A stretch of DNA of 64,000 bases, from assembly GCA_020723485.1 (NCBI GenBank), contig DYIU01000002.1, positions 591,543 through 655,542 on the forward strand. Reading direction: 5' to 3'. Source of the stretch: Acidimicrobium ferrooxidans. Lineage in GTDB: Bacteria > Actinomycetota > Geothermincolia > Fen-727 > Anoxymicrobiaceae. A program made the translations under genes and the position numbers. The notes beneath the pieces are model-generated. The model had not been told where the DNA came from. It did no database searches and saw only the letters and a program-made list of their open reading frames with translations. Every line of letters starts with the position of its first letter. Positions within the stretch are counted from its first letter, which is position 1. This document shows, in pieces, positions 3,105 through 20,314 of the stretch.

Positions 3105-4517
3105 ATGAACTCCCCTGACGAAAGCGCGCGAGAGCTCCTGCGGCTCATTCCGCAGGTTAACGAGCTGGCGGACCAAGTGATGTCCGGCGCCGGCGCCGGT
3201 CTGCCGCGGCGGGTGGTGATGGACGCTACGCGCCGCGTGGTCGACGGCGTGAGGGCTTCCATCCTCCAGGGCGGGGGCGCATCGACCGCTCCCGCCGAAC
3301 TGGATGTCGAGTCCCTCGCGGAATCGGTCGTGGCCGCCGCGCGGAAGACCCTTGAACCGGGCCTCCGTCGAGTGATAAACGCGACGGGGGTGGTGCTGCA
3401 CACCAACCTGGGACGCGCGCCGGTCTGGCGCGAAGCACTCGATGCGGCCGTTGAGGCCTCCTCGGGATACTGCAACCTGGAGTTCCGCCTCGAAGAGGGC
3501 GTCCGGGGCTCCCGCCAGGAGCACCTGGAACCTCTGCTCTGCTCGCTGACGGGGGCCGAAGCGGCGCTCGTGGTCAACAACAACGCGGCAGCGGTGCTGC
3601 TGGTCCTGGCCGCCCTCGCACGGGGCCGCGAGGTCGTGGTCTCCCGGGGACAGCTGGTCGAGATCGGTGACTCGTTCCGGCTCCCCGATATCATGGCCCA
3701 GAGCGGGGCAGTCATGGTGGAGGTGGGCACCACCAACCGCACCCGCCTCTCCGACTACAGCAACGCGGTGGGGCCCGACACCGCTCTCCTCATGAAGATA
3801 CACCAGAGCAACTTCCGCATCGTCGGCTACTCCGAGGACGTCCCGCTGCAGGAACTCGTCGAGCTCGGACGCCAGCATTTCGTCCCGGTCGTCGAGGACC
3901 TGGGCAGCGGTTCGCTCGTCGGGCTGGAGCCGCTCGGCCTCGCCGGCGAGCACACGGCGGCCCAGAGCGTCGCGCAGGGGGCAGACCTCGTGACATTCAG
4001 CGGCGACAAGCTGCTCGGAGGCCCCCAGGCCGGGATAATAGTCGGCGGACGCGAGTACGTTGACGAGGTCCGCGGCCACCCGCTGGCGCGCGCCGTCCGA
4101 ATCGACAAGATGACCGCCGCGGCCCTCGAGGTTACCCTCCGGGCCTACCTCGATCCCGACCAAGCGTGGTCGTCCATTCCGGGTCTACGGATGCTCTCCG
4201 AGGACCCCGGCGCGGTGCGCTCCCGGGCGAACAGACTCAAGCGCCTGCTCGAACGTGAAGGCCTTCAGCTCGAGTGCGCCGTGGTGCCCGAGATGTCCCG
4301 CGCGGGAGGCGGTTCGCTGCCCACCGCCGAGATACCCACATACTGCCTGAGCGTGTCACATGCCTCACTCTCCAATGCGGCCCTGGAGGAGAAGCTCCGA
4401 AAGGGAGAGCCGCCGGTCCTCGCGCGGATCAAGGACGAGCGTATCCTCTTCGACCTGAGAACAGTGTCCGACCAAGAGGTCTCGCTCCTGGCCGGGGCCA
4501 TTGCTTCGATCGCCTGA
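3105..4517 (+). CDS. selA: L-seryl-tRNA(Sec) selenium transferase (SelA)
   Basis: SelA is the PLP enzyme that converts seryl-tRNA(Sec) to selenocysteinyl-tRNA(Sec) with selenophosphate. The 470-residue length is normal. [18 protein letters not shown], [15 protein letters not shown] and the PLP-lysine motif [12 protein letters not shown] are all present. The N-terminus ([16 protein letters not shown]) matches the family helical domain. ATG 3105 is preferred because a TATAAT sits 7 nt upstream; ATG 3096 and TTG 3087 are in frame but have no ribosome site. Its last codons are followed 16 nt later by the selB start. It is part of the continuous selD-yedF-selA-selB-selC array. Confidence 0.96.
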
Positions 4518-4533
4518 AGAGACGGAGAGCCCT

Positions 4534-6444
4534 TTGACGCCGCGCCGCAACCTGATAATCGGAACTGCCGGACACATCGACCACGGTAAGACGGTCCTGG
4601 TCAAGGCGCTCACCGGGCGTGATACGGACCGCCTCGCCGAAGAGAAGGAACGCGGCATCTCCATCGACCTCGGATTCGCGCCGCTCACGTTCTCCGACGG
4701 CTCGGTGGCCGGCATAGTGGACGTCCCCGGGCATGAGAACTTCGTCAGGAACATGCTGGCCGGGGCCACCGGTGTGGACCTCGCGCTCCTCGTGGTCGCT
4801 GCCGACGATGGTGTCATGCCCCAGACGAGGGAGCACCTGGCCATCCTGGACCTGCTCGGCGTCACGCGCGCGGTCGTCGCGGTCACCAAGGCCGACCTCG
4901 TCGAAGAGGACATGCTGGAGCTCGTGGCCGACGAGGTAGGCGAGCTGCTAGAGGGGACCGCGCTGGAAGGCTCTCCGGTGATACCCGTTTCGGGCATCAC
5001 GGGGCAGGGTATTGACGAGCTCCGTGCCGAGCTGGAGCGGCAGGCCTCGGAAGTGCGGCTCAAGGACGAGGGGCTGCCTACGCGGCTTCCGATCGACCGG
5101 GTGTTCACGCTGCGCGGCATCGGCACCGTCGTGACCGGGACGCTGTGGAGCGGAACCATTGAGAACAACGGCCAGCTCGAGCTGCTCCCCTGGAGCAGGC
5201 CGGTGCGGGTTCGCGGCCTTCAGGTCCACGATTCCGACAGGGAGGCCGCCTACGCCGGCGAGAGAGTCGCCGTAAATCTCGCAGGCATATCACGGGAAGA
5301 GACCTCACGCGGTGACGTCCTGACAGTACCCGGCTACATGCGCCCGACCTACATGCTCGACGCACGAGTTACGCTCCTCCGGGATTGGGTCCGCCCCCTC
5401 AGGAGGGGGACCAGGCTCAGGCTCCATCACGGGACTCGAGAGGTCCTCGGGAGGGTCTATCCCCTCCAGACCGACAGGATCGAGCCCGGCGCCACGGCGG
5501 CTGCCCAGCTCAGGCTGGAGGCCGAGCTCGTGTGCGCTCCAGGCGACAGGTTCGTACTGCGGAGCTATTCGCCCGTCACCACGATAGGAGGGGGCATCGT
5601 GGTCGACGCCCACCCCCGCAAGCACCGTGTCCACGACCCGGAAGCGGTCCGGCAGTTCGAGGAGCTCGAGTCGGGCGACCTCGCGCGCGCCGTAGCGGTA
5701 TACCTGGAACGCTCCACCGCGCCGGTATCCGCCTCCGGCCTGGTCCTCGCCTCGGGGCTCGCTCCACAAGCGGTGGACGAGGGCCTGGAGCGCCTGCTGA
5801 AATCGGGGCTCGCGGTTTCCTCCGGCGGGGAAAAAGCGCGCGTGTATCTGCATAGAGACCACTATGAGAGCGCTACCGAGGAAATGCGCCGGGCGCTCGC
5901 CTCTTTCCACGAGTCAAGGCCGCTGGCGGACGGAATAGCCCGTGAGACGCTGAAGAAGAAGCTGCTCTCGGGCTGGGACCCCCGGTCCTCCGACGCACTG
6001 CTCGAGGGCATGGAAGCAGCGGGTGTCATCGAGACCGAGGGAAACGTGGTCAGGCTGGCCGGCTCATCCGTCTCGGTCACCGGTGACCAGGAGAGCCACC
6101 TCGAAGACATCTTGTCGAGGATTGCAGCGAGCCCCGTGTCTCCGCCGACCGTGAGCGAGCTCTCCGCCGAGCTCGGCCTGGACAGGGGTGCCGTCGCCGA
6201 GCTGCTCGGGCTCGCCGAGAGGGAAAAGAAGGTCATCAGGGTCTCACCCGAGCTGTACTTCTCCCCGGATACCGTGGCCGATGTGGAGGAAAGGCTCCGG
6301 TCCGCCGCCGGGCCGGAAGGCATAACTGTCAGTGACTTCCGGGAGGTCATCGGCACAAGCCGTAAGTACGCCCTCCCCCTGCTCGAATACTTCGACCGTA
6401 TGCGAGTGACGGTCCGCGTGGGCGACCTACGTAAGCTGCGCTAA
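4534..6444 (+). CDS. selB: Selenocysteine-specific elongation factor SelB
   Basis: SelB delivers Sec-tRNA to ribosomes stalled at UGA and binds the SECIS hairpin with its C-terminal winged helices. The 636-residue protein has the GTPase motifs GHIDHGKT (residues 13-20), DVPGHENF and TKAD. EF-Tu-like domains II and III follow ([11 protein letters not shown] and [11 protein letters not shown]). A C-terminal region of about 250 residues fits the four winged-helix repeats. I chose TTG 4534 because GGAG lies about 7 nt upstream and the P-loop then starts at the usual distance. The frame is open from 4501, but that part overlaps selA. tRNA-Sec follows 26 nt after the stop. Confidence 0.96.
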
Positions 6445-6470: not shown

Positions 6471-6566
6471 GGAGGTGGATCCGTCCTGGTGGGCGGCGCG
6501 GTCTTCAAAACCGTTGTGGCGTCTTAACCGGCGCTGGGTAAGTTCGATTCTTATGCACCTCCGCCA
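6471..6566 (+). tRNA. selC: tRNA-Sec (anticodon UCA)
   Basis: A 96-nt tRNA including an encoded CCA (6564-6566) with discriminator G. The acceptor arms are GGAGGTG (6471-6477) and CACCTCC. The D arm has the six-base-pair stem and four-base loop typical of tRNA-Sec (CCGTCC-TGGT-GGGCGG). The anticodon loop CTTCAAA places UCA at 6505-6507. A long variable arm and a T arm (GTAAG-TTCGATT-CTTAT) follow. The eighth acceptor pair would be G-G, so the 8+5 geometry is imperfect by eye. Its position directly after selB completes the selenocysteine pathway in one locus. Confidence 0.95.
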
Positions 6567-6587: not shown

Positions 6588-7481
6588 TTGGGCCTTGACA
6601 TATCTGTACTCGAAACGTTCACGCTGGTAGCCGACCTCGGCTCGTTCAGCGCGGCCGCTCGCCGGCTCGGCATCACCCAGCCGGCCGTGTCCCTCCAGAT
6701 CAAATCGCTCGAGAAGGAACTCTCCGCGTCGCTCATCGACCGGTCGGGCGGGAAGGTCCTGCTGACGCCGGCTGGCCGGGCCGCCTACCAGCACGCGGTG
6801 AGGATACTCGCCTACCGCGACCAGATGATGGCGGACATCCCCCGCTCGACCGGTCAGGTGGCGGGCCGGCTTCTCATCGGCGCGAGCAACATCCCCGGGG
6901 AATACCTGCTGCCACCGATCCTGAGCGAGTTCAGCGTCCTTTATCCCGAAGTCTCCACGGTGCTCGAGATAGCGGACTCCGAAAGCGTTCTGGCAGGCTT
7001 GCGCGAGGAAGAGGTGGAGCTCGCGTTCGTGGGGACGCGTCCCGACACGGCCTCGGGTTGGAAGCGATTCGCTTCCGACCGCCTCGTGCTCGTAACGCCG
7101 CCCCACCACCCTCTGTCCGTCAAGAAGAAGATCCCACTGCAATCGGTAGCGGGCGAGCGCTTTGTGAGCAGGGCGGCCGGGAGCGGCACCAGGGCCCGGT
7201 TCGTGGCCGCGCTGGGCGAGCTGGGCTTGAGCGAGGACAGCCTGGACCTGGTCGCTGAGCTCGGCTCCAACCAGGCGGTGGTCTCAGCCGTCCAGGCCGG
7301 GATGGGCATCTCAGTCATAAGCCGCCTCGCCGCCGAGCAGCCGGCGCGTTCCGGCCTCATCAGGATGATGGAGATCTCAGGGGTGGACCTGTCCAGGGAT
7401 TTCTACGTTGTCTTCTCGCCGGACAGGCCGCTCTCCCTGGCGGCCGAGAGGTTCCTGGAGATGGTCTCGGGTGAGAAGTGA
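6588..7481 (+). CDS. LysR family regulator, selenium-metabolism associated type
   Basis: A 297-residue LysR-type regulator. The N-terminal winged helix-turn-helix (about residues 6-65) reads AAARRLGITQPAVSLQI. A CysB-like periplasmic-binding-fold effector domain follows (LLIGASNIPGEYLLPPIL, GSNQAVVSAVQAGMGISVIS). A distinct LysR group is known to travel with selD, selA and selB, and its place 21 nt after tRNA-Sec fits that group. TTG 6588 is the start, with no strong ribosome site, so the exact N-terminus is uncertain. It overlaps the next gene by 11 nt. The effector and targets are not visible; control of selenium or molybdenum genes is inference from context. Confidence 0.85.
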   Translation: MGLDISVLETFTLVADLGSFSAAARRLGITQPAVSLQIKSLEKELSASLIDRSGGKVLLTPAGRAAYQHAVRILAYRDQMMADIPRSTGQVAGRLLIGASNIPGEYLLPPILSEFSVLYPEVSTVLEIADSESVLAGLREEEVELAFVGTRPDTASGWKRFASDRLVLVTPPHHPLSVKKKIPLQSVAGERFVSRAAGSGTRARFVAALGELGLSEDSLDLVAELGSNQAVVSAVQAGMGISVISRLAAEQPARSGLIRMMEISGVDLSRDFYVVFSPDRPLSLAAERFLEMVSGEK

Positions 7482-8079
7482 CATCCCCGGGCGGCGCAGG
7501 GGCATCATCGTTGTCAGCGCGGCATCCAAGAAGGGCGGAAAGAGCACGGTCGCTGCGCACCTCGTCCGGGAGCTGCGTGCCGACTACGGCCTCAAGGTGA
7601 GCGCCGGCGGCACGCACGCGGAGGAGACTCTCACGACCGATCCCGGGGTGATCTCCACCCCCGGCACGGACACGGGCGCGCTGGTTGCGGCGGGCGCGCG
7701 CCGCGTGCTGTGGGTCAACGCCCCGCCCGAGCATCTGGGCGCAGAGCTCGACCGCGCCCTGTCTATGTTCGGCGAACCGGGGCTCCTGGTGGTGGAAGGA
7801 GGCAGCGCGCTTGCGCACCTCGACCCCGATTTCTCGGTATTCCTCATGGGCGTCCCGTTCACCGATTTCAAACCTTCCGCAGAGAGGGCTCTCGAAAAGG
7901 CCGACCTCGTCCTGGTAAACACCTCTGGCGCCCTTTCCGGCTCCGACGTGCGCGGGCTCGAGGCCGAGATACACGGGAGGGCGCCGGATGCCCGTGTTCT
8001 CTTGTATGACTCAGGGGGATTTACCGAAGCCCTCGCCGAGGCCGCCCGCCTCGCGCGCCAGAAGCTGAACCGGCATTAA
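7471..8079 (+). CDS. MobB-like P-loop nucleotide-binding protein
   Basis: A 202-residue protein with an N-terminal Walker A motif (SKKGGKSTVAAHLVREL) and later GLLVVEGGSAL, which resembles the acidic Walker B region of MobB/dethiobiotin-synthetase folds. GTG 7471 overlaps the lysR stop by 11 nt, so the two are co-translated. MobB assists molybdopterin guanine dinucleotide formation, the cofactor of the formate dehydrogenase encoded next door, so a role in cofactor supply is plausible. The match is only to the P-loop fold, and the classic MobB motif GYKNSGKTTL is absent, so the function stays open. A strong hairpin ends the transcript 2 nt after the stop. Confidence 0.6.
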   Translation: MRSDIPGRRRGIIVVSAASKKGGKSTVAAHLVRELRADYGLKVSAGGTHAEETLTTDPGVISTPGTDTGALVAAGARRVLWVNAPPEHLGAELDRALSMFGEPGLLVVEGGSALAHLDPDFSVFLMGVPFTDFKPSAERALEKADLVLVNTSGALSGSDVRGLEAEIHGRAPDARVLLYDSGGFTEALAEAARLARQKLNRH

Positions 8080-8080
8080 A

Positions 8081-8108
8081 GAAAGGGCCCCGTTTCCGGG
8101 GCCCTTTC
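8081..8108. terminator. Bidirectional hairpin terminator
   Basis: A perfect 12-bp stem (GAAAGGGCCCCG paired with CGGGGCCCTTTC) with the loop TTTC. It separates the plus-strand P-loop gene from the 3' end of the minus-strand rnfD. The A-rich and T-rich stem ends would give U runs in both directions. Confidence 0.85.
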
Positions 8109-8131: not shown

Positions 8132-9091
8132 CTACTCGCCTTCGACTGGCACCGTCTTTACCGCGCCGAACCTCTTGCGCACAACTACGCGGTTCAGCAG
8201 GGGCGTCAGGGCGTTGCCGATGAGTATCGAGTAGGCCACCGCGCCCGTAGGTGCGGCGTAGAGCCGTATCACCGTGACCAACACGCCGATTATCACACCG
8301 TAGATGATCTGGGCCAGCCTGTTGTCAGGGCTCGTTACCCAGTCGGTCGCCATGAAGACGGCGCCGAACACCAGGCCGCCGGCGAGGATCATGTAGAGCG
8401 GGTTCTCGCCGAGTATCGCGGTCAGGATGAACACGGTGCCGATTATCGAGACCGGGATGTGCCATGTGATGTGGCCCTTGTACATCAGGTAGGCCCCACC
8501 GATGAGCACCGCCAGTATCGATACCTCGGCCATCGCCCCTCCGGCGTGTCCCAGGAACAGCCACCAGTAGCCGGGGCGCAGACCGTTAAGCGCGCCGGCC
8601 TTGATGAAGGTCAGCGGCGTGGCGGACGTCACCCCGTCCAGGGCGCCCAGGTACAGCGTAGTGGCGGTCAATCCGAAGAGCTGGGAGATTATCAACAGTG
8701 ATACAAACCCGAACAACGCGGGGTTGAAGATGTTGTATCCGAGTCCTCCCATCAGCTCCTTTACCAGGGCCACCGCAATGAAGGTGCCGATCATCACGTA
8801 CCAGAACGGCACTCCGGGCGGAAGCAGAAGGGCAACGAACAGGCCCGTCACTATGGCGCTGAAATCGCCGATCGAGGGCTCCCTGCCCATTATCTTGCGC
8901 ATGACCCACTCGCAGGCGATTGCCGTGACGACGGCCGCGGCCAGGTTCACGATGGCGTAAAGCCTGAAGAACCCGATGGCCACCGCGATGACGGGAATGA
9001 GGGCGATCGCAACATCCCTCATGGCAGAACCCGTCAGGTCCTTGCTCTTGATGTGCGGCGGTGGCGAGTATGCGAACTCGTTGTTTGCCAT
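8132..9091 (-). CDS. rnfD: RnfD, membrane subunit of an Rnf-type complex
   Basis: A 319-residue polytopic membrane protein. It has the RnfD/NqrB landmarks: N-terminal SPPPHIKSKDLTGSAMRDV, IMGREPSIGDFSAIVTGLFVALLLPP, NIFNPALFGF, and the covalent-flavin motif DGVTSATPL at residues 152-160, where Thr carries FMN. The C-terminal half contains further helices and MATDWVTSP. ATG 9091 lies 18 nt after the rnfC stop. Rnf complexes normally need RnfG, E, A and B as well; none is encoded here, and the operon ends at the hairpin directly downstream. The identity is clear; the partner set is not. Confidence 0.93.
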   Translation of the reverse strand: MANNEFAYSPPPHIKSKDLTGSAMRDVAIALIPVIAVAIGFFRLYAIVNLAAAVVTAIACEWVMRKIMGREPSIGDFSAIVTGLFVALLLPPGVPFWYVMIGTFIAVALVKELMGGLGYNIFNPALFGFVSLLIISQLFGLTATTLYLGALDGVTSATPLTFIKAGALNGLRPGYWWLFLGHAGGAMAEVSILAVLIGGAYLMYKGHITWHIPVSIIGTVFILTAILGENPLYMILAGGLVFGAVFMATDWVTSPDNRLAQIIYGVIIGVLVTVIRLYAAPTGAVAYSILIGNALTPLLNRVVVRKRFGAVKTVPVEGE

Positions 9092-9109
9092 GTACGTCTC
9101 GCCCCCTTT

Positions 9110-10423
9110 CTATTTCTTGGCCGCGGCGGCCAGTTCCGCTTTGGCTTTTCTCACGTATCCGACATGTGGTATCCGGGCCGGGCAGACGTAGGAGCAGCAG
9201 CCGCACTCGAAGCAGTCGCGCGCCCCGTACTTGTCCGCCAGGTCCCACTTGCCCAGCCTCGCCTCTTTGGCGATCATGTTGGGCGTCAGGAACATCGGGC
9301 AGGCGTCCAGGCATTTGTCACAGCCCACGCAGCGCTGCTCGGCGTTGCTGTCTATGACCTCCTGCGTGAGCGCCAGTATGCCGCTCGTCCCCTTTACAAC
9401 GGAAGCGGACAGGTCTTTCTGCGCGAACCCGGTCATGGGCCCGCCCATGATGACCTTCGCCACCCCGCCGGTCATCCCGCCGCACTGCTCTATCACGTGC
9501 TCGATCGGGGTGCCGATCTTGACGAGCACGTTTGCGGGGTTCTTCATTCCGGGTCCGCTCACCGTTATCACCCGGTCGATGACGGGCTTGCCCGTCGAGG
9601 CTGCGTCGTAGAGGGCTATGGCCGTGCCGACGTTCTGCACCAGCACGCCCACCTCGCTCGGCAGCTTGCCCGGGGGCACCCTGCGCCCGGTAATCGCGTC
9701 GATGAGCATCTTCTCGGCGCCCTCGGGGTACTTGACCTCGAGGAGGACGACGTCGATCGCCGATTCGCCCGAGACCTTAGGCGTCAGGACATCGGCAGCA
9801 TCCATCTTGTTGGCCTCTACCCCGATGAATGCCTTGCTCGCGCCAACCGCCTTCATCATGAGCTTCAGGCCCGCGATGAGGTCGTCCGCCCGTTCCAGCA
9901 TGAGCCTGTGGTCACAGGTCAGGAAAGGCTCGCACTCGCACGCGTTTATTATCACGGTGTCAATCGCCTTGTCCTTGGGAGGCGTGAGCTTCACGAACGT
10001 CGGGAAAGCCGCGCCGCCGAGTCCGACAAGCCCGGCCTCCTTGGCGATGTTGCGTATCTCCTCAGCGGAGAGGTTCGATACGTCGCGCTTTTCCGTCCAC
10101 TTGGCGGGCTGGTTCGGGTCAACGGTGATTATCACCGAGTTCACCGGAGCCCCAGTGAAGTTCTTGCGCTCCTCGATCGCCTTGACCGTGCCGGAGACGC
10201 TGGAGTGCACGGGGGCGGAGATGAACGCGTCGGTGGCGCCTATCTTCTGCCCGGCCTCGACCCTGTCCCCGACACTGACCGTCGGCGCGTTCGGCGCGCC
10301 CACGTTCTGTGCCATCGGAATTACCACTTCAGCGGGGAGGGAGATCTCGACGGTCGCCTTCCCGGCGGTAGCCTCTTTCCGATACGGCGGATGGATTCCG
10401 CCACGGAATGTCTTGAGTTCCAT
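9110..10423 (-). CDS. rnfC: RnfC, NADH/FMN and Fe-S subunit of an Rnf-type complex
   Basis: A 437-residue RnfC. The N-terminal barrel-sandwich region (FRGGIHPPYRKEATAG) is followed by the flavin/NADH domain (GLVGLGGAAFPTFVKL, NACECEPFLTCDHRLM) and the SLBB-type region. Two ferredoxin-type motifs end the protein: C365-C368-C371-C375 and C404-C407-C410-C414. RnfC connects NADH chemistry to the membrane subunits. It lies 15 nt after fdhB on the same strand and before rnfD, so it is co-transcribed with formate dehydrogenase. The partial gene at the left edge of the window is a close relative. Confidence 0.94.
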   Translation of the reverse strand: MELKTFRGGIHPPYRKEATAGKATVEISLPAEVVIPMAQNVGAPNAPTVSVGDRVEAGQKIGATDAFISAPVHSSVSGTVKAIEERKNFTGAPVNSVIITVDPNQPAKWTEKRDVSNLSAEEIRNIAKEAGLVGLGGAAFPTFVKLTPPKDKAIDTVIINACECEPFLTCDHRLMLERADDLIAGLKLMMKAVGASKAFIGVEANKMDAADVLTPKVSGESAIDVVLLEVKYPEGAEKMLIDAITGRRVPPGKLPSEVGVLVQNVGTAIALYDAASTGKPVIDRVITVSGPGMKNPANVLVKIGTPIEHVIEQCGGMTGGVAKVIMGGPMTGFAQKDLSASVVKGTSGILALTQEVIDSNAEQRCVGCDKCLDACPMFLTPNMIAKEARLGKWDLADKYGARDCFECGCCSYVCPARIPHVGYVRKAKAELAAAAKK

Positions 10424-10438
10424 CTAATCCCTCCTCTC

Positions 10439-11269
10439 CTACTGTTCCAGCTTGTACTTGTCTTCGAGCCCGCGGTTACGCGCGTTGATCACCCCGTTGA
10501 CAACGAGGGCGATAACAAGCCCGGCCGTTGCCACCAGCCCGTAGGGCTTGGTGATCGCCTTCCAAACCGTCACGGAGACGGGCACGGAGGGGTCGTTCGG
10601 CAGGCCGTACTTGCTGGGCTCGTCTGTCAGGATATACATGTAGTTGAGCCCGTCCAGCTCGGTCTCGCCGTACAGGTGCGCCTTCGGGTAACCCGATGCC
10701 TTTAGTCGCGCCACCCGCAGCTTGGCCTTCGCGATGAGCTCGGCGCGGTCGCCGAAGGAGAGCGTCCCCGGTGCGCAGGACTTCACGCAGGCGGGGATGT
10801 CGTACTTGGCGACCCCGTTGGTGACCCTGTCGAAGCACATCGTGCAGCGGAAGATGCCCTTTTCCTTCTGGTTGTACCCGGGTACGTCGAAGGGACAGGC
10901 CACCCTGCAGTAGTTGCAGCCTATGCACTTGTTGGGATCTGTCTGCACGGTCTTGAGCACGGACCCGTCGGAGAGCTTGTAATCGATGTGGGTCGTCGCG
11001 TTCGGAGGGCAGACCTCCACGCAGGCCGCTTCGTCGCAGTGCATGCACTGGTGCTTGGTGAAGAGCCACGTCATCTTGTCGTCTTTGTAGTACTCGTTGA
11101 ACAGGATCCGCATCCAGGTGTAGGAACTCAAGGACGGAGGGTTCTCGTAGGAGCCCTTGTTCTCGGTCTTCTCACCCGGGTTCTGGTTCCACTGCTTGCA
11201 GGCGACCTGGCAGGCGCGGCAAGCTGTGCACCTCGTCGTATCGACTAGGATTGCCTTCTGATTAGCCAT
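10439..11269 (-). CDS. fdhB: Formate dehydrogenase iron-sulfur (beta) subunit
   Basis: A 276-residue ferredoxin-type protein of the FdnH/FdoH group. It has four cysteine clusters: CTACRACQVACKQW, CMHCDEAACVEVCP, CIGCNYCRVACPFD and CTMCFDRV...CVKSC. A C-terminal hydrophobic helix (about residues 240-260, LVATAGLVIALVVNGVI) anchors it in the membrane, as in FdnH. It passes electrons from the molybdenum centre of FdhA to a membrane partner. No cytochrome b gamma subunit (FdnI) is encoded nearby; rnfC follows instead. The start at 11269 lies 13 nt after the fdhA stop. Confidence 0.94.
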   Translation of the reverse strand: MANQKAILVDTTRCTACRACQVACKQWNQNPGEKTENKGSYENPPSLSSYTWMRILFNEYYKDDKMTWLFTKHQCMHCDEAACVEVCPPNATTHIDYKLSDGSVLKTVQTDPNKCIGCNYCRVACPFDVPGYNQKEKGIFRCTMCFDRVTNGVAKYDIPACVKSCAPGTLSFGDRAELIAKAKLRVARLKASGYPKAHLYGETELDGLNYMYILTDEPSKYGLPNDPSVPVSVTVWKAITKPYGLVATAGLVIALVVNGVINARNRGLEDKYKLEQ

Positions 11270-11282
11270 ACCACATCACCTC

Positions 11283-14200
11283 CTAAGCTTTCTCGATGTT
11301 GACCAGGAACGCTTTGTACTCCGGCGTCGTGGTGTTACAGTCACCGATGTGCGGAGTCGTCTGGTTCCCGGCGTAGTTGCTTCCGTCCGGACCGCCGGTG
11401 CACAAGCCTGTGAACCCGTAGTGGTACGGCATGTTCACCACGTCGGTGGACTTGCCATCGACCTTGATCACCTGGATGCGGTCTGTCACGAGAGCGACGC
11501 ACTTGACCTCGCCCCGGATGCTCTTGACCACCACCCAGTCACCGTTGCTTATGCCCTTGCGCTTGGCCAGGTCCTTGGACATCTCCACGAACATGTTGGG
11601 CTGCATCTCGATGAGCCACGGCATGTTGCGCGTCATCGTCCCGGACTGGAAGTGCTCGGTGACCCTCGAGACACCGCATATTATCGGGTACTTCGGGTCG
11701 CCGACGGGTGCCAGCTTGTCCATCGCGGAGTCCCATATCTTTACGACGGGACTATGCTGGCTGCCGTTCATCATGTTCTTGAATTTGGTCTCGACTGGCT
11801 CGTAGTGCTCCGGGAACGGGCCGTCCACGTTGGCGCCCGCGGCCGCGAAGAACGCTCCCATGCCGAGGTTTATCATGATGAACGGGTTGGCCGCCGAGAC
11901 GTTGGGCGCAACGGGCGGATTGCCCGGCAGCGCGGCGTCCGTGGCCTTGAAGTCCGGCACGTCGACGTTCACCCACTTCGTGCCGTCCCACTTGACGAGC
12001 GTCTTGTCCGCCGTCCACGGCTGGCCGTTCACGTCCGCCGAGCAGCGGTTGTAGACGATGCGCCTGTTCACCGGCCAGCACCATGCCCAGCCGGGGTAGA
12101 TGGCGACGTTGCCCTTGTCCTCGTTGTTGGTGCGCTTGGCAAGGTTGCCCTTGGTCTTGGCGAAGCTGGCCTGCGCGGCCGCGAGGGTCTCGGGCTTGTC
12201 CATGCCGGGGTAATCGGCCTCCTCGGGGTAGACCCCGCTGTAGACCCAGTTACCGCAGGCAGTGGAGCCGTCGCTCTTGAGCGCGGTGAAGTTCTTCACG
12301 CGCTTCTTGGTGGCCGTGTTGTAGCCGTTCATCTCGGCCAGCACCTCTTCGCTGTCCGCGACTTCCCCGTAGGGCCAGTTGAGGTTCAATATGCCCTCGC
12401 GGTTCGGTGCCTTCTCATCGGCCTTGTACAGCTCGACCAGCCTCCTCCAGATGGCGCCGAGGGTGTCTATGTCCTTGCGACTTTCTCCCTTGGGTGAACC
12501 ATACTGGTAGAACCACTGGACCACGCGGCCGGTGTTGGAGAACGTCCCCTGGTACTCGCCGTTCTGGGTCGCCGGGAGCAGGAAGACCTCGGTCTTTATC
12601 GAGCCGGGGTCGGCGCCCGGGCGCTTCCAGAAGTTGGGAGTCTCGGTGTTGAATATCTCCGAGACGACCAGCCAGTCGAGGTTGTCCATGGCGTCCGACT
12701 CCATGTTGGAGTTCGGTCCGCCGACAACCGGGTTCTGCCCGATGACGAACAGGCCCTTCACGGTCTTGTTGTACATCGCCTCGAAGAGGGCGATGTGCGT
12801 GTAGTTGGTGCCGTCCTTGACCCTGGGGAACCAGATGTACCCGAACTGGTTGTCGGGCTTCGCGTTGTCCCCGTACATCGCTTTAAGGAAGCTGTTGAAG
12901 AACTTGTCGTAGTTCTGCGCTACGAAGGCGGTGCCCACCATCTTCTTGGAGAGGTAGGCCGCCAGGTCGGGGTCCTTCGCGCTGTTCGGCATTCCCAGGT
13001 AGCCCGGGACTATGTGCGAGAGCAGCGCCTGGTCGGTCGAGCCCTGCACGTTGGCGCAGCCCCTGAGGGCGGCGATGCCGCCGCCGGGGACTCCGACGTT
13101 GCCGAGGATGAGCTGCAGCATCGCGAAGCAGCGGATGTTCTGCGTCCCGTAGCTGTGCTGGGTCAGGCCCATAGCGTACAGGAGGACACCGCTCTTTCCC
13201 CGCTCGTATGTGGAGCAGTAGGCCTTGGCGACTTCCTCGAACTTGGCCTTGGGGATGCCACAGACCTGCTCGACCTTGTCCGCCGTGTAACGGCTGTAAT
13301 GCTTTATCAGCTGCTGCCACACGCACTGCGGGTTCTGAAGGGTCGGGTCCTTGAGCGGCTTCCCGTCCGGGCCCATCTGGAACGACCACGTCGCGAAGTC
13401 GTAGCTCTTCTTCTTCTTGCCCGTCTTCGGGTCCTCGGTCTCCTTGAAGCCGGAGAAAAGCCCGGTGTCGGGGTTGAAGGTGAAGCCGGGATTGACCAGG
13501 AACGACGCGTTCGTGTAGTTGTTCACGAAGTCCCAGTTGACCATGTTGTTATCTATCGCGTACTTGATCAGGGCGCCGAAGAAGACGATGTCCGTCCCGG
13601 GCCTTGTCTGCGCGAAGATGTTCGCCTTAGACGCGGTGCGGGTGAACCTGGGGTCGACGACTATAAGGGTCGCCGGGTCCTTCTCGCGGTTCATCGCCTC
13701 TTCCACCCACTTGAAGGTGATGGGGTGGTTCTCGGCGGCGTTGGATCCACAGACCATGAAGGCGTTGCTCATCTTCATGTCCTGGACCTGGTTGGTCATG
13801 ACGCCTCGTCCGTACGTGGCCCCCAAACTGGAGACCGATGGAGCGTGTCACAACCTGGCGTGGTGCTCTATGTACACCACGCCTAGCGAGCGCGCGAACT
13901 TCTGGTAGAGGTAAGCGCCCTCGTTGGAGAGCTCGGCGCTGCCGAGTGTTCCGATGGCCTCGGTGCGGTTCGCCGGGACCTTCTTCCCGGTGGGCTTGCC
14001 GTCGGGGCCGATTATTTCGTCTTCCTTGATCCAGTTGGCGTCCCGGGTCTCCTTCACCAGCTTGGCTATCTTGTCGATAGCCTCTTTCCAGGAGATCTCG
14101 GTCCAGTCGGATGCGCCCTTGGCGCGGTACAATGGTTTTGTGAGCCTCTCCGGGTTGATCTCACCGTCGATGTAGGACTTCTGGATGACGGCAGAACCCT

Positions 14201-14468
14201 TGCTGCAGAGCGTCCCGAAGTTGATCGCGTTGTCCGGGTTGCCCTCGGAGTTCACGATCTTGAGGTGGTCGCCTTCTTTCTCGCTTGCCAGCAAGGTGCC
14301 GCAACCAACGGCGCAGAACGAGCAGACGCCGGTAGTCTCTACGGCCTTGACGATTCGAAGAGGTTCTGTAGCTGCACGCGCAGGCAGTTTAAAGCCTAGG
14401 TTTACCAGAGCCGCCGCCCCCAGCCCGGAGCCGGACAGCTTGATAAAATCTCTACGCGTAAGTTCCAT
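11283..14468 (-). CDS. fdhA: Formate dehydrogenase catalytic (alpha) subunit, selenocysteine-containing
   Basis: The gene is one 1061-residue selenoprotein read through an in-frame TGA at 13848-13850. It is not two genes. The N-terminus (MELTRRDFIKLSGSGLGAAA) is a Tat signal, so the enzyme is exported. A 4Fe-4S site C49-C52-C56-C88 follows. The active site reads HHARL-U-HAPSVSSLGATYGRG with Sec at residue 207, matching the ARLUHGPSV motif of formate dehydrogenases; His follows Sec as required. The remaining molybdopterin domains are intact (GSNAAENHP, VVDPRFTRTA, and the C-terminal MNMPYHYGF-like region). ATG 14468 has GAGGGGGG about 3 nt upstream; GTG 14480 is a weaker choice. It oxidises formate, or reduces CO2, with bis-MGD. 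Confidence 0.97.
13818..13850 (-). promoter_or_regulatory. UGA(Sec) codon and SECIS hairpin of fdhA
   Basis: On the minus strand the UGA at 13850-13848 is followed after 11 nt by a hairpin with stem GGTCTCCA/TGGGGGCC (13836-13829 with 13825-13818, eight pairs including G-U pairs) and loop GTT. The loop starts 20 nt after the UGA with G in its first position, both as expected for a bacterial SECIS read by SelB. Confidence 0.85.
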
Positions 14469-14588
14469 ATCCCCCCTCACTTTCCTAGATTCTTTTAAGG
14501 CGCTATTCGAACCCTACAGTTCCCCGGAGAAAACCAAATCCACCCCCCCTAAGGTCAATTGCTCCGGAGCCTTGTTTCCTCACGGACT

Positions 14589-15458
14589 TTATTGTCTACC
14601 GGCCGGCTTGAGGCCTTCCTCGGAAGCGGCCAGGTCGAGCTCCGCGGTTACTATATCCTCCAGCGGAAGCAGCACGTCCTTGTCAGTTCCACGCAAGTTT
14701 ACAGTCTTTATGTATACCTTACAACTACTACAGTACTGGACTCTCTTGCCGGGTTCGTCCTCGATGTACAGGAACTCGAGTGAACCCAATGATTCGCTGC
14801 AGAAAGGACAGCTCGCGCGTTGCAGGTTCCAGAGCGTGTGGCACAAAGAACACTCCACCAGCCACAAGCCGTCTTCGTTTCTAAAAAACCCCATCAGCGG
14901 TGCGCTCCCGCAAACAGGGCAATGGCCTCTTTGCCATATGGACTGGTCCATTCCGGACGCAAGAATACTACCACACTTGCGGTAGAACGGCGCAAGGGAT
15001 TCCCACAATATGTTCGAGGCAAGAATCTTGTCCGAATCGTCCTCCCATCCCGACGTCAGGGGAAGCTCCTCGCCGGCGAGCACCCGTGCCATGGTGGAAC
15101 GCAGGTTCTCGTCGCTCAGGCCATCCCAGGAGTAGAGCTCCTTCGAGTGCTCGAAACCTCCCGGGCGCCTCTCCTCCATCACCGTGCAGATGTCCTTCAC
15201 CAGGCTCCTGTACCTGACCGGGTCCACCTCGAGCTCGGGGGCGTCGACCATGGTGACAAGCGTACCCAGGCGGGCGTCCCTCTCTTCCACGTCCATCTCG
15301 ACGCTGCATCCGACCTCTTCCAGCGCCTTCTGCTGCAGCTCCATCACGGCCCCGTAGAGGCGAAGGGCCCCCTCGTAGTCGGGGTATCTCTCCACGTAGC
15401 GCTCCACCGCCTCGCGGACTCCCTGCACACCGGGGTCGACTGTCTCGACTACTGCCAA
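14589..15458 (-). CDS. fdhE: Formate dehydrogenase accessory protein FdhE
   Basis: A 289-residue protein. Its C-terminal half carries the FdhE rubredoxin-like metal sites: CPVCGSAPLMG, CSLCHTLW, CPFCSESLG and YCSSCKVYIKT. FdhE is a cytoplasmic factor needed for assembly of exported formate dehydrogenases. The N-terminal half is helical and less conserved. TTG 15458 follows AAAGGAG with a 6-nt spacer. It sits between tatC and fdhA on the same strand, which fits maturation before Tat export. Confidence 0.92.
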   Translation of the reverse strand: MAVVETVDPGVQGVREAVERYVERYPDYEGALRLYGAVMELQQKALEEVGCSVEMDVEERDARLGTLVTMVDAPELEVDPVRYRSLVKDICTVMEERRPGGFEHSKELYSWDGLSDENLRSTMARVLAGEELPLTSGWEDDSDKILASNILWESLAPFYRKCGSILASGMDQSIWQRGHCPVCGSAPLMGFFRNEDGLWLVECSLCHTLWNLQRASCPFCSESLGSLEFLYIEDEPGKRVQYCSSCKVYIKTVNLRGTDKDVLLPLEDIVTAELDLAASEEGLKPAGRQ

Positions 15459-15484
15459 TAGAAACTCCTTTGCTTAATGAGATA

Positions 15485-16222
15485 TCAGGTGTCTGCCAGC
15501 TTCGCTTCCTTCGCCCTGCGCCTGCTCGCCGTCATCCAGGCCAGGGCGAGGCTAAGCAGGTACAGCACGACCATCGGTATCGCGACCAGCACCATGGTCA
15601 CCGGGCTCCAGTCGGGGGTGATGATGGAGGCCGTGAGAAGTATTATCAGGAGGGCATAGCGCCACTGCTTCTGCAGCTGCTCCGGGGTGATGACGTTCAG
15701 AAGGACAAGCATCCAGATGAAGATGGGGGTCAGGAACGATACCCCGAGCCCCAGGAGGAACCATCCCGCGAAGTTCACATACTGCCCGGCAGAGAGAACC
15801 GGCCGCATCTGGCCACCCGCCACGTTCAGGAGCCAGTTGATGCCCGCCGGCATGATGAACCTGTAGCCGAATACCACGCCCGCCGCGAAGAAGAGCACGA
15901 TCATGGACATTATGAGTATCGTATAGCTTTTTTCCCTGGCCTTGAGCGCGGGAGAGGCGAACGCCATCGTCTCGAAGAGTATCACCGGGAGCGCCAGGAT
16001 GATGCCGCCGAACAGTGCGAGCTTGAACCTCACCAGGAACGGTTCCATCGGGGTCATGTAATAGAGGTTTATCGAGCCCGCCGGCTCCTTGATTATCGCC
16101 AGGATGTCCCACGCGAAGAGCCATGCGACCGCCATCGCGACGACTAGCGCCAGAACGCTCACGATTATCCTGCGTCTCAACTCCTCCAGGTGCTGGAGGT
16201 AGGTCATGCGGCCGGCTGCCAA
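15485..16222 (-). CDS. tatC: Sec-independent protein translocase subunit TatC
   Basis: A 245-residue protein with six membrane helices. The N-terminal motif MTYLQHLEELRRRIIVSV is the TatC signature, and the family motifs FETMAFASPALKAREK and a PDWSP region near helix 5 are present. TatC binds twin-arginine signal peptides such as that of FdhA in this operon. TTG 16222 lies 6 nt after GGAGTGAGA; ATG 16207 is a possible shorter start. The gene is 18 nt downstream of tatA. Confidence 0.95.
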   Translation of the reverse strand: MAAGRMTYLQHLEELRRRIIVSVLALVVAMAVAWLFAWDILAIIKEPAGSINLYYMTPMEPFLVRFKLALFGGIILALPVILFETMAFASPALKAREKSYTILIMSMIVLFFAAGVVFGYRFIMPAGINWLLNVAGGQMRPVLSAGQYVNFAGWFLLGLGVSFLTPIFIWMLVLLNVITPEQLQKQWRYALLIILLTASIITPDWSPVTMVLVAIPMVVLYLLSLALAWMTASRRRAKEAKLADT

Positions 16223-16240
16223 ATCTCACTCCGTCGAGAG

Positions 16241-16441
16241 CTATTCCTTGCTCTCTTCCTTAGGCTCGGTGGACTCCTCGAGGCCCTTGGTGACTTCCTG
16301 CTGAACCTTGTCCGTCGAGTCCCTGAACGCGCGTAGAGCCTGGCCGACCGATTGCCCGACCTTGGGCAGGCGGGAGGGTCCGAAGATCACCAGCGCGATA
16401 ACAAGTATTATTATGAGTTCCGTTGGTCCAAGTCCGAACAT
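16241..16441 (-). CDS. tatA: Sec-independent protein translocase subunit TatA
   Basis: A 66-residue TatA. It starts MFGLGPTELIIILVIALVIFG, one membrane helix, followed by the amphipathic helix PSRLPKVGQSVGQALRAF and an acidic tail. ATG 16441 has AGGAGG about 10 nt upstream; the open frame further upstream is not needed. TatA forms the export pore with TatC. It is the first gene of the seven-gene minus-strand operon that ends with rnfD. Confidence 0.94.
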   Translation of the reverse strand: MFGLGPTELIIILVIALVIFGPSRLPKVGQSVGQALRAFRDSTDKVQQEVTKGLEESTEPKEESKE

Positions 16442-16659
16442 CTGGAAAATCCCTCCTGTATTGGGATGAACCCGCGTCCCTACTGTTTTGATGTTAAAGG
16501 TGGCGGTGCCCGGTGTCAATTCGGCCCCCGAATCCCCCGGACAGCGCTCCCCGCTGCACTTAGATTGCCGCGGTGGGCTCTGCTAGAATTGGTGCGGCTT
16601 GCCGGGCCCGGGGACCGTTTTCGCGGCGACAGCCGGGCTCTCGGAGAAGGGAGGACGAG

Positions 16660-17967: not shown

Positions 17968-19377
17968 TCAGGCGCGGCGGTAGACGAAGTCCGCGAGCTG
18001 CTTCAGGTTGCGGACCTCCTGCACGGCGTGGCAGTGCTCCTCGTAGATACCGATTATCGAGTCGCCGGTGTCCCAGCGCTCGGCAGGCTCCGGGTCCAGC
18101 CAGTACACCCTGCGGGACCTGCGGGCGATCCGGCCCAGCGCCTCGGACCTGGGGTCGCGCGCGTTGTTCCGGCCGTCGGAGAGTATGAGGACCGTGGAAC
18201 GGGGCGTCAGCTCTCCCGAGAACTCCTTCTCGAACAGGTCCAGCGCCCTTCCGACGTCGCTGTGGCCGTCCCCGTCGACCAGGACGCCCTCTCGGTATAC
18301 GCGCTCTATCGCCTCGTCAACATCGCAGTACTTGAAGAGCTCCGTCACCTCGTCCACCCTGTCAATGAAAGCGAAGCTGCGGACGGCCTTGAACTGCTGG
18401 TGCAGGCTGAAGACCAGCTGCAGGGTGAAGGTGCTGAAGGTCCTGACCGAGCCGGAGACGTCGCACAGGATGAACAGCTCGGGTTTCGCGGGAACCCGCT
18501 TCTTGTACTTGACGTCGATGGGGACTCCGCCGCTCGAGATGCTGTGGCGCAGGGTATTTCGGATATCGAGCCTCCCCCGCCTTCCTTCGCTCTGCCTCCT
18601 CGCGATCCTGGCGGCGAGCTTGCGCGCCAGCGACGGCAATATCCTCCTCATGTCGTCGACCTGGCGGACAGACGCGTTGATGAACTCTATCTCCTCGGGC
18701 CTGACCGGCAGCTTACGGGTCCTGCTCACAGCTTCCTCGCCGCGCTCCAGGGCGAGCTGGCGTTGAATCTCCCGCTCGAGCGCCCTGCGGAAGAACTCGA
18801 TGCGTTCCCGGAGCTCTTCGGCTGCCAGCACTGGCGGCAACTCCGGCATTATCTCTCCGTCCGCCGCCATCTCCTGCAGCTCAGCGGAAAGACGGGCGTA
18901 CTTGAGCATCTCCATGCCGCGGAACATGTAGTACCCCGACCCGGCCATGAACGCCAGGGGCCGCGAGCCCCTTCCGAAGCCGCCTTCCATCTGCCCGATC
19001 GTGGCCGCTGCCATCCGTGCCAGCGCGGCCAGCTCATCCATGCTCCCGTGCTCGAGCGCGTCCCTGAGCATCTCGGTCAACTCGGCCGGGGTCATGGAGC
19101 CGGTCCCCTCTGAGTCCTCCCCGCCCGGCTCATCCTCGGGCGGCGCCGCCAGGGCTTCCGCGCCCAGGAAGTAATCCTCGAACACGGCGTCGAAGATGGG
19201 GTAGTCCATTTCGTTCTTGACCACCGTGGCCCTGAGTGCGGACCTGAATATGTCCATCTTCTCCAGCGGGGCCACCCTGACCGCTTCGCAGGCGTCGATG
19301 CTCTCAGCGAGGGAAACGTGCATGCCCGCCGCCCTGAGCTTCCCTATGAAATCGAGCAGTCTCTCGTCTATCTCCAT
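17968..19377 (-). CDS. CoxE-like von Willebrand factor A domain protein
   Basis: A 469-residue protein. The N-terminal 150 residues are CoxE-like (LLDFIGKLRAAGMHVSLAES). A charged linker follows, then a VWA domain with a complete MIDAS start DVSGSVRTFS, a GHSDVGRAL loop and ILSDGRNNARD. Such proteins pair with MoxR ATPases to insert metals or remodel partner enzymes; CoxE/CoxD act on CO dehydrogenase. Its MoxR partner lies 10 nt upstream in the same direction. No obvious client enzyme is adjacent. The domain assignment is firm; the client is unknown. Confidence 0.88.
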   Translation of the reverse strand: MEIDERLLDFIGKLRAAGMHVSLAESIDACEAVRVAPLEKMDIFRSALRATVVKNEMDYPIFDAVFEDYFLGAEALAAPPEDEPGGEDSEGTGSMTPAELTEMLRDALEHGSMDELAALARMAAATIGQMEGGFGRGSRPLAFMAGSGYYMFRGMEMLKYARLSAELQEMAADGEIMPELPPVLAAEELRERIEFFRRALEREIQRQLALERGEEAVSRTRKLPVRPEEIEFINASVRQVDDMRRILPSLARKLAARIARRQSEGRRGRLDIRNTLRHSISSGGVPIDVKYKKRVPAKPELFILCDVSGSVRTFSTFTLQLVFSLHQQFKAVRSFAFIDRVDEVTELFKYCDVDEAIERVYREGVLVDGDGHSDVGRALDLFEKEFSGELTPRSTVLILSDGRNNARDPRSEALGRIARRSRRVYWLDPEPAERWDTGDSIIGIYEEHCHAVQEVRNLKQLADFVYRRA

Positions 19378-19387
19378 CGGGCTCGTC

Positions 19388-20314
19388 CTACTCCAGGGCC
19401 TGGCGCGCCAGCGACTTGAGGCTTGCCTGTACTTTCTCCAGGTCCTTCTGCTCCTTGACCAGCAGGCTGAGGGTGCTGGAGATCAGCTCCTCGTCGATGA
19501 CGTCGCGCCCCAACACCTTGACCGCGGTAGCCCAGTCCAGCGTCTCCGAGATACTGGGGACCTTCTTCAAGTCCATCTGCCGTATGTAACGCACGACCGC
19601 TATCACTCGCCGCGCGAGGTCCTCTGCTATGCCGGGCACCCTCAACCTCACGATCTCGAGCTCCCTCGACACCTCGGGGAAATCGATGTAGAGGTACAGG
19701 CACCTGCGCCTGAGGGCCTCGGACAGGTCCCTGGTGCGGTTGGAGGTGAGCACCACGAACGGCATCTGCCGGGCGTCGACGGTTCCGAGCTCCGGGATAG
19801 AGACCTGGAAATCAGACAGGACCTCGAGCAGGAAAGCCTCGAATTCCACGTCCGCCTTGTCCACTTCGTCCACCAGCAGGACCACCCGGCCCTCGTTCGT
19901 GATGGCGCGCAGAAGCGGCCTGGGCAGGAGGAACTCCTCGCTGAAGAGGTCGTCCTCGAGGTCTTCCCACGACGTCCCCTCGGTGCGGTCGGCCTGGATG
20001 CGCAGGAGCTGTTTCTTGTAATTCCACTCGTAGAGCGCCTTCGCCTCGTCGAGCCCCTCGTAGCACTGGAGCCTGATAAGCGGGAGGCCCGTGTAGCGGC
20101 TGTAGGCTTTGGCCAGGTCGGTCTTGCCCACTCCCGCCGGACCCTCCGCGAGGATCGGCTTGTTTAGCTCATCCGCGAGGTACAGCGCCGTCGCGATCCC
20201 GTCGTCGCAGAGGTACTCCGCGCCCTTCATGCCCTGCTTTATCTCGTCTATCAGCGCGCCGTTGTTCTTTTCCACCTTTTCTTTCTCCTTGCTAGCCTTC
20301 TTCTGACCTCTCAC
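19388..20314 (-). CDS. MoxR/CoxD-type AAA+ ATPase
   Basis: A 308-residue AAA+ protein with Walker A GPAGVGKTDLAKAY, Walker B VVLLVDEVDKAD, sensor 1 VLTSNRTRDLS and an arginine-finger region ALRRRCLYLYIDFP. This is the MoxR arrangement. MoxR ATPases act with VWA proteins as chaperones for metal-enzyme maturation. Its start overlaps the end of the flavodoxin-like gene by 23 nt, and its stop lies 10 nt before the VWA gene. The lysine-rich first 16 residues may not all be translated, as a later start is possible. Confidence 0.92.
   Translation of the reverse strand: MRGQKKASKEKEKVEKNNGALIDEIKQGMKGAEYLCDDGIATALYLADELNKPILAEGPAGVGKTDLAKAYSRYTGLPLIRLQCYEGLDEAKALYEWNYKKQLLRIQADRTEGTSWEDLEDDLFSEEFLLPRPLLRAITNEGRVVLLVDEVDKADVEFEAFLLEVLSDFQVSIPELGTVDARQMPFVVLTSNRTRDLSEALRRRCLYLYIDFPEVSRELEIVRLRVPGIAEDLARRVIAVVRYIRQMDLKKVPSISETLDWATAVKVLGRDVIDEELISSTLSLLVKEQKDLEKVQASLKSLARQALE

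Follow-up and report, generated by a model that had tools for sequence, protein, structure and literature searches.

Introduction

The usual view of exported formate dehydrogenases and hydrogenases is that their electrons go to cytochrome b and quinone, or to cytochrome c. A 64,000-nucleotide stretch of Acidimicrobium ferrooxidans DNA (the window; GenBank assembly GCA_020723485.1, contig DYIU01000002.1, positions 591,543 to 655,542) raises the question of where the electrons go when the formate dehydrogenase genes are followed by two genes known from the Rnf complex. These genes belong to a seven-gene operon, tatA-tatC-fdhE-fdhA-fdhB-rnfC-rnfD, which spans 8132-16519 (window coordinates are used throughout) and lies entirely on the minus strand. 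The operon probably specifies a membrane-bound formate:nicotinamide adenine dinucleotide (NAD(H)) oxidoreductase, FdhAB-RnfCD, whose composition, electron path and direction we infer from comparative sequence analysis.

Architecture of the operon

Pfam assignments agreed with the gene calls for all seven products (TatA, TatC, FdhE, Mo-oxidoreductase, Fer4 subunit, RnfC and RnfD). The first three genes are tatA/E-like (16241-16519; PF02416, E 3.1e-17; ATG start likely at 16441), tatC (15485-16222; PF00902, E 2.4e-56) and fdhE, for a formate dehydrogenase maturation protein (14589-15458; PF24859, E 5.5e-9). They are followed by fdhA (11283-14480; Molybdop_Fe4S4, Molybdopterin and Molydop_binding), fdhB (10439-11269), rnfC (9110-10423; PF01512, RnfC_N, SLBB and Fer4; Protein Data Bank (PDB) RnfC 7zc6_C, E 4e-130) and rnfD (8132-9091; PF03116, E 1.2e-90; PDB RnfD 7zc6_D). 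The intergenic gaps, in operon order, are 18, 26, 108, 13, 15 and 18 bases, the 108-base gap separating fdhE from fdhA. An intrinsic terminator stands 3' of rnfD on the same strand (8078-8107; AAAGGGCCCCGGAAACGGGGCCCTTTCTTT), with a perfect 10-bp hairpin and a T-run; it was recognised by eye and was not listed by a consensus terminator scan. The initial annotation, made from the letters of the DNA, had described this order on a single strand with small gaps and a terminator, and had found neither a cytochrome b gamma subunit nor rnfG, rnfE, rnfA or rnfB in the operon. Gene calls, Pfam and the hairpin bear out both statements, and a genome-wide PF01292 search was likewise empty.

The fdhA gene, for a catalytic subunit exported by the twin-arginine (Tat) pathway, is a single 1065-codon frame with one in-frame TGA at codon 211 (13848-13850), in the context ARL-U-H, and with the twin-arginine motif TRRDFIK. 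Both the Tat motif and the selenocysteine (Sec) context ARx-U-H were found again in most FdhA sequences of relatives. Judged from these sequences, the TGA is a selenocysteine codon. A pseudogene was ruled out by the Sec context, by the presence of the TGA within the same motif in relatives, and by two adjoining plus-strand genes, selB (4501-6444; SelB wing and beta-barrel domains), for the Sec-specific elongation factor required for making FdhA, and the tRNA-Sec gene (6471-6566; ARAGORN). FdhB, the four-[4Fe-4S] subunit, has its closest solved relative in FdnH (1kqf_B) of Escherichia coli formate dehydrogenase-N. All 16 of its Cys are invariant in an alignment of 20 sequences. Its predicted structure ends in a C-terminal helix (residues 244-275), with which hydropathy concurs, and this hydrophobic helix was kept in every FdhB sequence measured.

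The catalytic half is thus that of formate dehydrogenase-N (FdnGHI), with a Tat-exported selenoprotein alpha subunit and a four-cluster beta subunit carrying a C-terminal membrane helix. In contrast to FdnGHI, both operon and genome lack FdnI (the diheme cytochrome b gamma subunit, PF01292); RnfC and RnfD stand in its stead, and the proposed acceptor is NAD(H) instead of quinone. A cytochrome b hidden elsewhere in the organism's own genome, which is 95% complete, was considered and rejected on the same PF01292 search.

Cofactor sites and the proposed electron path

RnfD (319 amino acids) contains PF03116 only and is not fused to a PF00175 domain; the NAD site resides in the separate RnfC. Alignment to PDB RnfD 7zc6_D placed the covalent flavin mononucleotide (FMN) Thr at T158 and the riboflavin ligands at N123 and D250, all three invariant in 83/83 sequences. 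Across 83 sequences the eight cluster Cys of RnfC, which bind two [4Fe-4S] clusters, are also invariant, and, like Rnf-type RnfC, the protein has the FMN domain with the conserved Gly/Glu positions. With these ligands in place, RnfCD would span the whole electron route between NAD(H) and the periplasmic side. The pair resembles the Rnf complex (RnfCDGEAB, ferredoxin:NAD+ oxidoreductase) in having RnfC and RnfD with all flavin and Fe-S sites; it differs in that the operon is without RnfB, RnfG, RnfA and RnfE, that is, without the ion-pumping and ferredoxin parts, and in that its RnfC and RnfD form a separate lineage.

In the proposed mechanism, FdhA would interconvert formate and CO2 at the outer face of the membrane, and FdhB, anchoring the enzyme through its C-terminal helix, would carry the electrons over its four [4Fe-4S] clusters. 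Rather than deliver electrons to cytochrome b (FdnI) and quinone, FdhB would exchange them with the FMN that RnfD binds covalently on its periplasmic side. FdhB, membrane-anchored at the outer side, would occupy the position of RnfG. The onward path would lead from the RnfD riboflavin through the two [4Fe-4S] clusters and the FMN of RnfC to cytoplasmic NAD(H). This route would correspond to Rnf's return arm, the ion-pumping RnfB-RnfAE-RnfG arm being absent. Because electrons would cross the membrane, the complex may act as a reversible, potential-coupled half-loop, in which formate oxidation would build membrane potential and, in the reverse direction, the potential would pull NADH electrons outward and formate would be made outside the cell. 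At textbook potentials of ~-430 mV for formate and ~-320 mV for NAD, the reaction would be near equilibrium. That RnfCD could be the membrane electron partner of FdhAB had been suggested in the initial annotation, and the suggestion gains support, at the sequence level, from the retained flavin ligands and cluster Cys, the FdhB anchor and the existence of carriers without RnfA/E (below), all of which fit RnfCD in place of the membrane subunit. The FocA formate channel was not found in the genome, and an acetyl-CoA synthase (CdhC/AcsB family) is present.

A different acceptor was also considered, in which RnfCD would hand formate electrons to quinone or ferredoxin. NqrB, a homologue of RnfD, does bind quinone in Na+-NQR (PMC12174285). 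Against this stand the FMN domain and Gly/Glu positions kept by RnfC, and a feature of the NqrB quinone site that, according to a review of RNF, is not present in RnfD. Both quinone biosynthesis markers were negative in the organism's own genome (the futalosine menaquinone pathway is absent and menD gave no match above cut-off), on which the quinone route was rejected there. We regard transfer to quinone or ferredoxin as improbable, and NAD(H) as the probable partner.

Recurrence with formate dehydrogenases and hydrogenases

The order tatC-fdhE-fdhA-fdhB-rnfC-rnfD is conserved within the organism's own class of Actinomycetota, which we take to be Geothermincolia-type (records include Ca. Geothermincola and Ca. 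Solincola). Across 59 related genomes, RnfC fell into classes by identity to the window copy, with 59-80% for its own class, 43-49% for Rnf-type copies and 53% for the copy of a lone rnfC-rnfD pair (below); the relatives carry a second, Rnf-type RnfC. GTDB genomes were then scanned with an alignment of the extra RnfC, the 80 nearest loci were taken and their neighbours were annotated by tblastn. FdhA/FdhB-type genes adjoined 38 of these loci and NiFe hydrogenase genes 14, while 19 were normal Rnf operons and 9 had other or cut-off contexts. The Fdh-linked loci come from Actinomycetota, Bacillota, Chloroflexota and Bradymonadales, including Dethiobacter, Symbiobacterium and Dehalococcoidia, and their orders vary (fdhA-fdhB-rnfC-rnfD, rnfC-rnfD-fdhA-fdhB, fdhA-rnfC-rnfD-fdhB, fdhB-rnfD-rnfC and others). 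Persistence of the partnership through these shifts of gene order points to a joint function of the encoded proteins. With the same order present again in relatives at 49-80% identity, and in other phyla too, the operon is, by this comparison, not a chance arrangement. Recurrence in related genomes had been proposed as a check by the initial annotation; the outcome was strongly positive and extended to several phyla and to a second partner enzyme, the hydrogenase.

In this second set of loci, hydS (with a Tat signal) and hydL (NiFe) are accompanied by a four-helix protein, rnfC, rnfD and a maturation-protease-like gene; a Desulfovibrio locus (L096) reads rnfC-rnfD-FeS-hydS-hydL. The four-helix protein, encoded between hydL and rnfC (L078:8478-8960 and 12 relatives; alignment A2), had no Pfam match above cut-off. 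Its predicted fold (predicted local distance difference test score 82) is nearest to E. coli hydrogenase-1 cytochrome b and FdnI, a tentative match (Foldseek best E 0.0087, template modelling score ~0.6). Only one His is invariant in it, which makes bis-histidine hemes unlikely. On this model the protein possibly descends from a cytochrome b whose hemes disappeared once electrons were routed through RnfCD. PF01292 cytochrome b scored above cut-off in only 2/37 carriers; an FdnI/HyaC-type subunit would accordingly be unavailable in most, with RnfCD occupying its place. At a Dethiobacter sp. locus (L101:8983-15179), the neighbours of rnfC-rnfD encode a NarJ-type chaperone, a four-cluster subunit and another Mo oxidoreductase, which carries a Tat signal and shares 25% identity with FdhA.

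This range of partners (NiFe hydrogenases, the other Mo enzyme of L101 and a cytochrome b561) is what would be expected if RnfCD were a separate module, driven by NADH, for reducing a flavin or cytochrome carrier in the periplasm, with FdhAB sharing that soluble carrier and the two never binding one another. The C-terminal hydrophobic helix in all FdhB sequences measured points instead to docking at the membrane, and no carrier gene was seen recurring between RnfCD and FdhAB. Such a detached module is unlikely in our judgement, and we continue with direct contact between FdhB and RnfD.

Separation from the Rnf complex

In a tree of RnfC alone the deep branch was not resolved, at a support of 29, and a tree was therefore built from RnfC joined to RnfD. 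In this joined tree, support was 100 for a single group of normal Rnf sequences and, more weakly, 89 for a group of 48 extra pairs. We use the name extra RnfCD group for pairs that lie outside the normal Rnf clade, beside an exported dehydrogenase and without rnfGEAB, and the window pair belongs to it. Two RnfD residues mark the fdh type: D26 and E112 are each present in 44/44 fdh-type sequences and in 1/15 of normal Rnf, where position 112 is mostly Gln. The aligned NqrB sequence has Glu at position 112, like the extra group.

Three RnfD genes are present in the organism's own genome. A complete rnfCDGEAB lies at C5:~546,900-552,100, ~50 kb from the operon, and the genome's only apbE adjoins it. 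Because this complex has its own C and D, the operon RnfCD is surplus to Rnf; the idea that RnfCD completes a scattered Rnf was ruled out on the same ground. The initial annotation had named as decisive against its reading a set of rnfGEAB lacking its own C and D, and the genome holds the opposite. The second RnfD gene belongs to a lone rnfC-rnfD pair just left of the window (L005:9990-12523; C5:~590,000-592,520), divergent from a selD-like gene. This pair groups with hydrogenase-type RnfCD in the joined tree (support 100), although no such hydrogenase adjoins it, and may be what remains of a hyd-rnfCD operon that has otherwise been lost.

RnfA/E (PF02508) was missing from 5/51 carriers, namely G015 (99% complete), G018 (91%), G003, G005 and G083. 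In G015, apbE follows ~290 bases behind rnfD, inside the fdh operon, which suggests from gene position that RnfD is the flavinylation target.

Several observations weigh against the proposed complex. The remaining 46/51 carriers have RnfA/E somewhere, and most carry a normal Rnf, so that an exchange of parts is conceivable there. At three loci (L094:1652-4807, L115:1743-4855 and L117:79-3232) rnfC-rnfD lies directly behind a PF01292 cytochrome b561 with no dehydrogenase nearby; these pairs perhaps pass NADH electrons to heme or quinone. The quinone test comprised two marker families only, in a 95% complete genome, and nearly all carriers are metagenome-assembled genomes.

The first of these observations, together with the unchanged fold and cofactor sites of RnfC and RnfD, would also fit spare subunits of a normal Rnf that are swapped in during formate use, their co-transcription with fdh being regulatory only. 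Spare parts are hard to reconcile with a complete Rnf that has its own C and D in this genome and with the Rnf-type second RnfC of relatives; the separate clade with its D26 and E112 signature, the carriers without any RnfA/E, and a tie to exported dehydrogenases that holds through phyla and gene orders speak against them as well. We consider the spare-subunit explanation very unlikely and retain FdhAB-RnfCD. The link between RnfCD and dehydrogenases as such is well supported by comparative genomics.

Neighbouring genes

The interval between tRNA-Sec and the fdh operon (6588-8079) encodes a regulator of the LysR type and a P-loop protein (GGKST) that matched no Pfam family. Upstream of rnfC at two Bacillota loci (L093 and L102) there are likewise LysR genes. 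On the other side (17968-20314), a VWA CoxE-like protein and an AAA ATPase form a pair that resembles Mo-enzyme maturation pairs.

Relation to described systems and significance

FdhAB-RnfCD is a combination of known parts, the catalytic part of formate dehydrogenase-N and the return arm of Rnf. RnfD/NqrB-type proteins outside Rnf and Nqr, with one-way transmembrane electron transfer, have been described (Meheust 2021, PMC8238504; 2024 follow-up, PMC10979944). In those systems an NqrF-type NAD domain is fused to the RnfD-like part, which lacks the flavinylated Thr and has an FMN-bind protein for a partner. Here RnfC is a protein of its own, RnfD retains the Thr, and Fdh or hydrogenase takes the partner's role. 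Frank 2016 (PMC5080403) noted a reactor syntroph, unFirm_1, with RnfC and RnfD only, adjoining formate dehydrogenase, and detected both RnfC and the adjacent Fdh in the reactor metaproteome. That sighting concerned one incomplete genome and was read as a truncated cation-pumping Rnf; the electron path, the family and its distribution, and the version with hydrogenase do not figure in it. Timmers 2018 (PMC6295475) counted Ca. S. acetioxidans, with only RnfC, D and G, as Rnf-containing. The initial annotation did not know of a described complex of this make-up, and this stands in part: the family, its hydrogenase version and its mechanism were not found in the literature searched, which largely excluded subscription journals and bioRxiv, but the gene adjacency itself had been sighted once (PMC5080403).

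A broader reading, which we hold to be evenly balanced, makes RnfCD an adaptor of general use that links to NAD(H) across the membrane. Its lineage would have parted from Rnf long ago, and several exported Mo/W and NiFe enzymes would employ it instead of cytochrome b and quinone. The hydrogenase version would keep a cytochrome b scaffold, probably heme-less. With such an adaptor, anaerobes poor in quinone (including syntrophs) could exchange NADH electrons with extracellular formate or H2, coupled to the potential.

For annotation, RnfC and RnfD alone do not imply Rnf in an organism. If the proposed path is true, a flavin/Fe-S wire direct to NAD(H) would constitute a separate respiratory half-loop. 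It would be a candidate route by which anaerobes without formate channels or quinones, including syntrophs, may use formate as an energy source or send NADH electrons out in the form of H2 or formate.

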